64,000 bases of DNA from Cellulosilyticum lentocellum DSM 5427. Lineage in GTDB: Bacteria > Bacillota > Clostridia > Lachnospirales > Cellulosilyticaceae. Made by a program: the position numbers and the translations under genes. The notes under the pieces are model-generated. The model was not told the origin of the DNA, searched no databases, and saw only the letters and a list, made by a program, of their open reading frames with translations. Shown here one piece after another: positions 724-63,998 of this stretch (positions are counted from its first letter, which is position 1; every line of letters begins with the position of its first letter). The DNA lies in contig NC_015275.1 of assembly GCF_000178835.2 (NCBI RefSeq), positions 3,749,001-3,813,000 of the forward strand, written 5' to 3'.

Positions 724-854
724 AGTCTTCTTCCTAAAATGATCTATTTTTTTATAATCGTATAGCTACTATAATACATGACTTTTTCGCTATTATTTTC
801 TATTTAACTCCAACTATTGAGAAAATGCAACCAATTTTATGTATAGTAGTTAAA

Positions 855-957
855 GACAGCAAAAAATACGAAGCATATTTCCGAGAGGTAGCCCTTATCC
901 TCTCATTTCTACCTAGCATCATTCCTCATAAACGCTCAGACAACTTTATATTTATTG
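855..957 (-). repeat. Element E5: solitary 5' arm of dispersed structured repeat family
   Basis: Read on the minus strand, this stretch matches the 5' arm of elements E2 and E4. The shared blocks are CATAAA/TTTATGAGGAAT, AAATGAGAGGATAAGG, a TACC block and a CGTATTTTTTG block. It is clearly related base for base to 51911-52007. Short internal pairings are possible (GGTAG 887-891 with CTACC 909-913, or GAGAGG 883-888 with CCTCTC 899-904). The core helices found in E1-E3 are absent, so this is a fragment. It occupies most of the 352-base gap between the divergent oxidoreductase and aminotransferase genes. I could not identify a firm promoter in the rest of that gap. Confidence 0.65.
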
Positions 958-2978: not shown

Positions 2979-3014
2979 CAAGCATATAACTATTCAGCCA
3001 TATAAATAGAAATT

Positions 3015-3270
3015 TGTCGGGGACTTTACGGGCTATATGGGCGGAACTGAGAGAGGGGGGCTACCTATCGTGGCTTGGCTCCGCATTTCCAGTAGGCACT
3101 AAGCTCACTTTTTTGGATGAACGCCCACAAACTCGGTTCCCGGGGGCACGTGGGCTAAGTACCATCCAAAACGTTCGCTAAGTGCCTACTGAAAATACTC
3201 CGAAGTCACCCCGTCAGGCAGCCACCCTCTCTCAGTTCTACCAGCAATAACGCGTAAAGTCGCCTCCATT
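3015..3270 (+). repeat. Element E1: full-length copy of a structured dispersed repeat / candidate ncRNA
   Basis: Four nested helices can be drawn. Outermost, GACTTTACG (3022-3030) pairs with CGTAAAGTC (3253-3261). A 14-bp perfect stem joins 3044-3057 to 3225-3238. P1 is AGTAGGCACT (3091-3100) with AGTGCCTACT (3181-3190). P2 is TTGGATG (3113-3119) with CATCCAA (3163-3169). Apical P3 is GCCCAC (3123-3128) with GTGGGC (3150-3155). P2 and P3 are joined by AAC on one side and TAAGTAC on the other, the same joining bases as in E2 and E3. The element is much GC-richer than its surroundings. It lies in the 828-base gap between the VOC gene and the first rhodanese. Confidence 0.8.
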
Positions 3271-3404
3271 AAGTGTTTTCAAGAAAAAACAAAACTTGTT
3301 ATTATCTTTTTTCTGCACTTTGCACTTAGGGGTTTGAACACTTAAGAGATCAATAATGCTTGTAAGGCTCCCTAGCTTCCTTACAGAGCTACTTCTTGGC
3401 AAAA

Positions 3405-3770
3405 TAGACTTATGGGAAGCTTTATACGTTATTGCCTTGGGCGCCTGCCCTCGGCTTCGAGTATTTTTTAACTGTCGTTACGCCTTCTTTCCACGCTGCT
3501 TCACTGTCTTGGATGTTTATGAGGTCAACAACGTTTGTGAAAATGAGTGGGAATGGGTGCCTGGAGTAGTGACTTGGGAGCATTTTTTAGAAGCACTTAG
3601 TGAACGTTTTAGATGGGTTTTAGGCAGCTGTTTGAACGAAGTGAGTTCTGCCGTTCATCTAAATAAGTGAACTTAGTGCTTCTAAAAATGTGAACCGGAA
3701 CAACGGAAGGCACCCATACCCACTCATTTTCTCTCAGACGTACCTCTCATAAATACCACGTCAAATTTCT
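3405..3770 (-). repeat. Element E2: full-length copy, opposite orientation to E1
   Basis: This is a giant hairpin. A 22-base arm (3540-3561) pairs with 3709-3730 with one mismatch. P1 is a perfect 14-bp stem (3584-3597 with 3675-3688). P2 is TTTAGATG (3608-3615) with CATCTAAA (3656-3663). P3 is GGCAG (3623-3627) with CTGCC (3648-3652). Read on the minus strand, the joins are AAC and TAAAACC, as in E1 and E3. Its minus-strand 3' tail (GGCAATAACGTATAAAGC, the complement of 3419-3436) matches the E1 tail at 3243-3261, so the two elements meet tail to tail. A 104-codon open frame across this hairpin has no ribosome site and is not a gene. Confidence 0.8.
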
Positions 3771-3806
3771 ATTTACCATACTAACTAAATACTATTTATT
3801 ATTTAA

Positions 3807-31327: not shown

Positions 31328-31373
31328 AAAAAACCTGTGAGACTATAGTGTTTATTATAGTCCCACAGGTTTA
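31328..31373 (-). terminator. Terminator of flavodoxin gene
   Basis: AAACCTGTGaGACTATA pairs with TATAGTCcCACAGGTTT (one mismatch) around an eight-base loop. On the minus strand it is followed by TTTTTT. It lies between the flavodoxin stop (31549) and the CDF start. The remaining 175 bases hold only a short CTCATT/AATGAG dyad near 31433-31460. Confidence 0.85.
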
Positions 31374-31548
31374 ATTCCTGTTGCCAATAAATTGGCCCAG
31401 TTATTACATCCAACATAATAACCTGATTTATTCTCATTAAAGTCATTGTAAATGAGAACAAGCCTATTTGTCAATCTACTTTTTATAAATAAAATACATA
31501 ACCCAATTACTTATTCCTTTGCCCCAGAAAGATGGTTATGCAAAGCGC

Positions 31549-51768: not shown

Positions 51769-51841
51769 AGTCCCCTCCTTCATTTCACCTTCTTTGTCAA
51801 AGACCCACTTAAATAAATTTAAATTTGTCAGTTTCACATAT

Positions 51842-52007
51842 GCTCACTATGTTTACTTTAAAGCTTAGTAAAAGAATGAGTTTTTACATGTTCACCAAAA
51901 AAAGTAAGCCTTAGTGCTTCAAAAAATACGGAGCAGAATTTCGGAAGGTAATCCTTATCCTCTCATTTCTGCTCCGTAATATTCCTCATAAATACTCAAA
52001 CAAATAC
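51842..52007 (-). repeat. Element E4: diverged and truncated copy of the structured repeat family
   Basis: The minus-strand 5' arm matches E5 and E2, with TTAGTGCTTC, CGGAAGG, CTCATTT, CTCATAAATAC blocks on the plus strand. It contains a perfect 12-bp hairpin (51927-51938 with 51967-51978). A shrunken core follows: P1 CACTA (51845-51849) with TAGTG (51912-51916), P3 GTAAAA (51868-51873) with TTTTAC (51882-51887). The family joins AAC and TAAG, and an ACTCATTC loop, are kept. The 3' arm is gone. It fills the gap between the YdeI-type gene and secDF. Confidence 0.7.
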
Positions 52008-63814: not shown

Positions 63815-63998
63815 AGTCCAGCTAGGTGTCTTACTTTCAGCTGCTGTCTCACATCGTCAAGAGGCTCTCAACTCATACTACTTATGAACGACCAAAAACT
63901 CGCATTCGCTCAAACAATTGGTCTAAGAACCATAAGTAGCATTTCGTTAAGAGCCTCTAGACTCCGCTCCAAGGCATCTTCCAGCAAGCCACCTAGCT
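63815..63998 (+). repeat. Element E3: structured repeat family, outer tail cut by window edge
   Basis: GCTAGGTG (63821-63828) pairs with CACCTAGC (63990-63997). P1 is AGAGGCTCT (63860-63868) with AGAGCCTCT (63950-63958). P2 is CTACTTATG (63878-63886) with CATAAGTAG (63931-63939). P3 is GACCAA (63890-63895) with TTGGTC (63918-63923). The joins AAC and TAAGAAC, and the loop AAACTCGCATTCGCTCAAACA, match E1 and E2 while the helix sequences differ. It lies upstream of the PadR gene on the opposite strand. Confidence 0.8.

Follow-up and report, generated by a model that had tools for sequence, protein, structure and literature searches.

Inverted doublets of long self-complementary rods in the genome of Cellulosilyticum lentocellum: a possible giant REPIN-like mobile DNA element

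Introduction

The closest described systems to the sequences analysed here are the REP, BIME and REPIN elements, extragenic palindromes present in many copies and as inverted doublets, in which compensatory changes are frequent (PMC3116915, PMC3733652, PMC2817692). In the sections of this literature that we draw on, REPs are found near 3' ends in spacers whose genes are unidirectional or convergent, most of them forming inverted dimers and some lying within longer palindromes, and there are CGTC families without a tie to transposases (PMC3733652); REPINs, inverted doublets in which compensatory changes are common, are tied to RAYTs (PMC3116915). The corresponding sections of other sources treat the Y1 classes (PMC6006769), stem-loop families across 40 genomes (PMC2267715) and structured ncRNA candidates from intergenic screens, including mobile or repeat candidates in Clostridium novyi (PMC6429828), and a further paper mentions MITEs, the motif described in its available passages being different from ours (PMC4666352).

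In a 64,000-nucleotide stretch of the C. lentocellum DSM 5427 chromosome (contig NC_015275.1, positions 3,749,001 to 3,813,000; the window in what follows), we have studied long self-complementary sequences, here called rods. They have in common with REPs, BIMEs and REPINs that they are extragenic palindromes in many copies, form inverted doublets, show frequent compensatory changes, lie near gene 3' ends in unidirectional or convergent spacers, and are in some cases found within longer palindromes. They differ in size, with about 160–300 bases for a rod and 771 bp for the unit against 20–40 bp for a REP palindrome and ~100 bp for its doublet, and unlike REPs they carry several constant internal loops and have no linked Y1 transposase. 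MITEs are short, non-coding, dispersed elements with inverted ends and no transposase of their own, general traits that the rods share; the rods, for which no target-site duplication was seen and no parent transposon found, differ from MITEs in that their structure is conserved beyond the sequence. Integron attC sites, whose stems vary in sequence, are recognised in single-stranded, folded form by their unpaired bases, a mode of recognition that we infer for the rods as well, although these are dispersed doublets and not arrays. Finally, the ncRNA candidates, as far as the sections used here describe them, are covarying and intergenic like the rods, in which, however, wobble pairs are nearly absent (PMC6429828). 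Searching by topic and by sequence words in the open PubMed Central literature, we found no paper whose title or abstract describes this element.

Results

Composite unit and further rods in the window

An earlier note on this DNA, made from the sequence alone, had described three copies (E1, E2, E3) of a structured element, a reduced copy (E4) and an isolated arm (E5). The helices P1, P2 and P3 that it assigned to E1 are present at the positions given in Table 1, and the predicted folds lie well beyond chance: E1 forms a single long rod of -125.6 kcal/mol (z -9.3 against shuffles), E2 folds at -137.6 kcal/mol (z -6.4) and E3 at -64.2 kcal/mol (z -4.8), and none of the shuffled versions of the three folded as well as the native sequence. 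The loops said to be common to E1, E2 and E3 are indeed there, although in E2 they appear only on the minus strand. E4, as the note had it, is a reduced copy, recognised as a degenerate rod by the covariance model R1 (23 sequences, 162 positions, 33 pairs).

Table 1. Features of the rod family in the window (positions are those of the window).
Feature	Position	Strand	Remarks
Composite unit	3004..3774 (771 bp)	.	E1 rod (+), spacer, E2 rod (-)
Composite unit ends			imperfect inverted pair AAATAGAAATTTGTC / GTCAAATTTCTATTT
E1 rod core	3061..3223	+	R1 positions 1-162; 166.0 bits, E 1.8e-42; E1 itself in model
E1 helix P1	5' arm 3091..3100, 3' arm 3181-3190	+	read from sequence, folded
E1 helix P2	3113-3119/3163-3169	+	
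E1 helix P3	3123-3128/3150-3155	+	
E1 apical loop region between P3 arms	3129..3149	+	starts AAACTC; read from sequence and alignment
E2 rod core	3555..3713	-	165.7 bits; E2 itself in model
E3 rod core, diverged copy	63831..63990	+	76.9 bits, E 1.1e-18; outside model alignment
E4, degenerate rod	51829..51951	-	25.0 bits, E 7.7e-5
E5, possible remnant	764..891	-	14.9 bits, E 0.037, marginal; partial profile match 860-913

E1 and E2 are not two independent copies, as had been claimed, but the two inverted halves of one unit. Used as queries against their own genome they find 52 and 69 matching places respectively, both strands counted, and matches of the E1 kind and of the E2 kind recur next to each other in inverted order, which makes them one composite. 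Compared with other copies, homology stops at both ends of the unit against unique flanks, and a pair of strong rods of the E1+E2 type is found at 14 other places in the genome. No partner rod was found for E3 in the 3 kb around it.

Two other structured features were seen in the window. Just before E1, at 2265-2430, there is a short element resembling the ends of the C repeat described below (ATTAGGGATTTGG ... AACCAGAGTC), after which comes a strong hairpin that carries a T-run. The sole Rfam match in the window is a NiCo riboswitch at 31356-31440 on the minus strand (50.3 bits).

A dispersed family on the origin side of the chromosome

The host genome is a single contig of 4,714,237 bases, in which R1 gave 87 matches at E <=0.1, although these often represent one rod twice, the second time through its weaker reverse strand; of 2128 first-look candidates 150 were scored, and the count may therefore lack some weak copies. 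Strong rods (>=71 bits) number 47 at 32 loci, so that the genome-wide, dispersed family suspected in the earlier note is borne out by the covariance model. Wherever two strong rods are neighbours less than 1.5 kb apart they are arranged (+,-), in 15 cases out of 15 (P 9e-10 under random orientation). Internally shortened copies occur at loci L011 and L027, and at L009, L010 and L011 a C repeat of ~500 bases sits between both rods, the second of which is shortened in L011. Loci L015 and L037 have some 60 bases of flank beyond the element end in common, as if carried along.

Strong rods are not spread over the whole chromosome: none was found between 743 and 3189 kb, an arc of 2.45 Mb or 52% of the chromosome (P bound 4.5e-9), and weak rod remnants extend to 3059 kb. 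The GC skew of the sampled loci fits an origin near base 1, and the first gene of the chromosome is one that we take to be dnaA, which places the rods on the origin side. Among the 30 best C repeats, 11 lie inside the arc without strong rods, at 745–3050 kb (Fisher P 1.1e-4).

The C repeat, represented by L011:1180-1667 (~480 bases), was noticed at about 30 further places (L009, L010, L039 and L126-L132 among them) and has 51 matches genome-wide, also at places without rods. Judged by its reading frames it is non-coding, its core is very conserved, its covariation is rich in G.U pairs and it ends in a terminator; in L009-L011 it has no match in Rfam. It looks like a multi-copy RNA gene.

Distribution in related genomes

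Under stricter filters, R1 has matches in 10 of 59 genomes, the own one included, that is in 9 of 58 relatives, where the family has additional copies. Presence is patchy within the genus, where one genome out of six has 12 matches and the other five have none, two of these being 97–100% complete. Other members of the family have 41, 26, 22, 13, 3, 2 and 1 matches, and one genome of another family has 12. Used as a plain DNA query, E1 matched none of 40 relatives. Two genomes of another genus have a rod in the orthologous spacer, and its orientation differs between them. The rods of the window, of L009-L011 and of 15 diverse loci had no Rfam match at either gathering or permissive thresholds; in that comparison, and in agreement with the earlier note, the family does not correspond to a known RNA family.

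Stems change in pairs, with few wobble pairs

In alignment A1, 95.6% of the cells are paired and 16 of the 33 pairs show two-sided changes, with 103 two-sided cells against 8 one-sided ones, six of which fall in one column. The score for covariation reaches 0.339, compared with 0.126 for shuffled alignments and at most 0.073 for slid ones, the shuffles ignoring relatedness, so that by this score covariation in A1 lies above both controls; further pair types are no more numerous than in the shuffles (27 against 29.8). Alignment A4, made of 19 rods from 22 retrieved sites of Clostridium sp. KNHs205 (L351 and L362 excluded; the genome has 74 sites), gave two-sided changes in 33 of 73 pairs, with 102 two-sided cells against 17 one-sided.

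What kind of molecule, then, has kept these stems? In the helix interiors, where the cells of related copies are not independent, two-sided changes, G.U pairs, A.C pairs and other mismatches number 39, 1, 2 and 1 in the rods of the own genome, 81, 9, 12 and 20 in those of KNHs205, and 121, 10, 24 and 40 in those of the Lachnospiraceae MAG RUG10816 (22 of 25 sites retrieved), whereas the C repeat of the own genome has 23, 64, 5 and 7. Pooling the three rod sets gives 241 two-sided Watson-Crick changes beside 20 G.U and 38 A.C, and G.U against A.C differs between rods and C repeat with Fisher P 1.5e-12, with the same dependence among cells of related copies. The other mismatches in the rods (61 cells) exceed G.U, so the stems are not perfect. 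For comparison, 12 tRNAs in the sampled loci have 22 G.U among 261 standard pairs (8.4%), only standard pairs being marked in them. In 94 diverse rods, 6774 Watson-Crick pairs stand beside 19 isolated G.U, 36 A.C and 69 other mismatches (G.U against A.C, P 0.03).

An A.C on the rod strand is a G.U on the opposite strand, whose apex reads GTTTGA-GCGNAGC-GAGTT, and d(GCGNAGC) is a DNA mini-hairpin of unusual stability. Since G.U is scarce and A.C at least as common, the stems appear to be kept at the level of DNA or of both strands: the wobble pattern fits DNA hairpins, or structures, RNA included, that are needed on both strands. The changed pairs had been read as the mark of RNA selected for structure. 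With two-sided changes nearly devoid of wobble, A.C at least equal to G.U and the opposite pattern in the C repeat, this reading of the rods is doubtful.

Placement relative to genes

Orientation had been held to be unrelated to the neighbouring genes, which is roughly so, as 28 of the 46 rods of the own genome with a called neighbour have a co-directional upstream gene and, in a second count, 22 of 36; yet in the own genome a divergent gene pair flanks only 2 of the 30 loci that could be classified (a simple gene caller was used). One orientation per place was retained in a profile of 44 aligned near-full rods of the own genome, 16 of which follow a co-directional gene; in 7 of these 16 the rod starts within 12 nt of the stop codon. 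Of the others, 15 have an opposite neighbour, one has none and 12 lack a readable end. A sample of 95 diverse rods has 67 between called genes, 20 within called frames and 8 at edges, and the 67 comprise 26 tandem, 19 reverse tandem, 16 convergent and 6 divergent spacers, against 19, 25, 10 and 24 in 78 comparison spacers of more than 150 bp. The upstream gene is co-directional for 42 of the 67, and 31 of these 42 rods start between -47 and +38 nt from its stop. A role confined to 3'-UTRs was considered and dropped because many rods stand behind oppositely oriented genes.

The apex occurs beyond the family

The apex AACTC-GCTNCGC-TCAAACA tops long palindromes with different stems in Clostridia, Pasteurellaceae, Burkholderiales, Bacteroidota and Patescibacteria, and it also occurs in genome G014. 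Hosts include Lachnospiraceae, Clostridium, Selenomonas, Haemophilus, Rodentibacter, Variovorax, Ralstonia, Parabacteroides, Sphingobacterium and Magasanikbacteria. Searched as an 18-mer, exact but for one free base, the apex is found in 13 of 398 Bacillota genomes; when one mismatch at most is allowed, KNHs205 has 74 occurrences and RUG10816 has 42. A reversed-pattern control, which partly overlaps the true apex and hence is not independent, gave one match in the 18-mer scan (in G105) and matches in 4 of 9 genomes in the one-mismatch scan. A wider contig scan yielded at least 117 stretches, with ~30 chance matches estimated in 257 Gb. Among 215 motif sites with >=60 nt on each side, the arms scored >=50 in 96, against 2 for shuffled arms (best shuffled score 54), and 94 non-redundant palindromes with the same apex were obtained. 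Read by eye, TAACG and CTAA stand beside the apical stem in many hosts, the E1 equivalents being GAACG and CTAAGTAC. Inverted (+,-) doublets also occur in RUG10816 (five retrieved), Variovorax sp. OV700 and Haemophilus quentini; L147, with two same-strand sites ~200 bp apart, is one of the exceptions to inverted pairing.

In RUG10816, the stem 60–105 nt from the apex scores 29.1 with its own opposite arm and 9.5 with those of other copies, left arms score 9.8 among themselves and the own arm is the best in 20 of 22 cases, so these stems are locus-specific; the outer arms of different KNHs205 copies are related (25.4). In G014, one rod was seen by eye to be nested in the apical loop of a rod of a second kind. 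Locus-specific stems and the nested rod suggest either insertion into existing hairpins or a paired evolution of the stems.

Some further sequences were seen around these palindromes. G014 has, at L071, L073, L076 and L077, a second rod family, its apex being CGACTCGGGTTTGGCTGTGGGTAGGCGGGAG and its long stems variable. Haemophilus and Rodentibacter rods (L186, L216, L177) start with AAAGAAAGTAGGCAAA-like flanks, which are also found near Variovorax and Ralstonia rods, and some of the former end near AAGTGCGGT, which we take to be the Haemophilus uptake signal.

Discussion

In this analysis, E1 and E2 form one unit, laid out as two inverted self-complementary rods with a short spacer. We propose, with a probability of about 0.55, that this unit is a copy of a mobile, non-autonomous DNA element working like a giant REPIN. 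When the region becomes single-stranded, during replication or repair, each rod would fold to a near-perfect DNA hairpin, and a putative protein supplied in trans would recognise not the sequence of the stem but its constant unpaired motifs, namely GAACG, AAACTC - small triloop hairpin - TCAAACA, and CTAA. This protein would move or copy the doublet into intergenic spacers, often beside stop codons. As only complementarity would matter, the stems may drift as matched pairs, and if one arm were copied from its partner, two-sided changes would arise with no wobble intermediate. The sharp ends of the composite, the shortened copies, the patchy presence within the genus and the differing orientation in an orthologous spacer count for mobility. 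The mobile or repeat character put forward in the earlier note is supported in this way, transposition itself being what we infer: no transposition event or empty site was seen, synteny to the genomes of the same genus being too weak for an empty-site comparison, and no target-site duplication appeared when the flanks of eight doublets were compared by eye.

The covariation, which is real in both A1 and A4, could also be that of a structured RNA at transcript 3' ends, in which a protein or a ribonuclease binds the constant loops and the mRNA is protected or processed by way of the rod. The starts close to the stop of a co-directional gene (31 of 42 diverse rods; 7 of 16 in the own genome) and the avoidance of divergent spacers (6 of 67 against 24 of 78) speak for it, but G.U is not commoner than A.C (20 against 38), unlike in the C repeat (64 against 5) and in tRNAs, and a co-directional upstream gene is present in no more than 28 of 46, 22 of 36 and 42 of 67 cases; we regard such an RNA as unlikely. 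Wobble would be missing on either strand, as observed, if the rods were two-way terminators or host boundary structures whose loops serve termination or chromosome structure, since a rod that must fold in the RNA of both strands can allow neither G.U nor A.C. Rods are placed at gene ends, and by eye some outer stems resemble A-tract - stem - T-tract. However, 3' T-tracts are not clearly above A-tracts (7 against 8 of 21, 7 against 6 of 21, and 17 against 11 of 54), termination does not need constant internal loops and many rods adjoin gene starts, so we give this possibility rather less credit than the 3'-end RNA.

The least probable of the alternatives, in our judgement, is an ordinary MITE whose mobility depends on a DDE transposase and whose structure is only a by-product of long inverted repeats. 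Terminal inverted repeats (the imperfect AAATAGAAATTTGTC ends), sharp ends and shortened copies are what a MITE would have; against it stand the lack of target-site duplication in the eight doublets, the fact that no transposase separates paired rods at the loci inspected, the pairwise change of stems around constant loops and, by eye, related rods of other genomes that do not have these ends.

On the side of the REPIN-like mobile element, the rods are REPIN-like and not REPINs, being alike in layout and place and different in size, foot and transposase. By eye, GTAG is not seen at the foot of the 32 rods, among 44, that have a readable end, where AAATAGAAATTTGTC and its variants stand instead; the end AAATTTGTC contains a TGTC, like variants of the CGTC tag, and may represent such a tag. 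An autonomous parent inside the doublets was looked for by eye in L009-L011, L079, L080, L086 and L087, without any transposase-like frame. A link with Y1/RAYT transposases was rejected as well: 24 of 29 genomes have such a gene whether or not they carry rods, and the carriers G017, G301 and G416 have none; no R1 match lies beside eight long Y1 genes (L115-L122) or beside L123. Repeats of the GGGGACGT type occur at the Y1 loci L116 and L119 and of the GGGACGG type at L117, L120 and L122, and GGGGACGT repeats are not among the five longest repeats of L115, which holds the Y1 gene of the own genome.

More tentatively, the rods may belong to a pan-bacterial class of structured elements acting at the DNA level, with arms free to differ, in some genomes from one locus to the next, while the apical module between them (TAACG - stem - AACTC-GCTNCGC-TCAAACA - stem' - CTAA) stays constant. 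Such elements would spread as inverted doublets by a single-strand DNA-processing system, and arm-to-arm copying would keep the arms complementary.

If our main reading is right, REPIN-like mobile DNA would extend to Clostridia and other groups, in far larger units, and the constant apex could serve as bait for finding the protein. Counting G.U against A.C in covarying helices would be a simple check to tell DNA hairpins from RNA genes, without which intergenic screens based on covariation could take such elements for new RNAs. Should the pan-bacterial reading hold too, the two-sided covariation that usually serves as proof of RNA structure could arise at the level of DNA.
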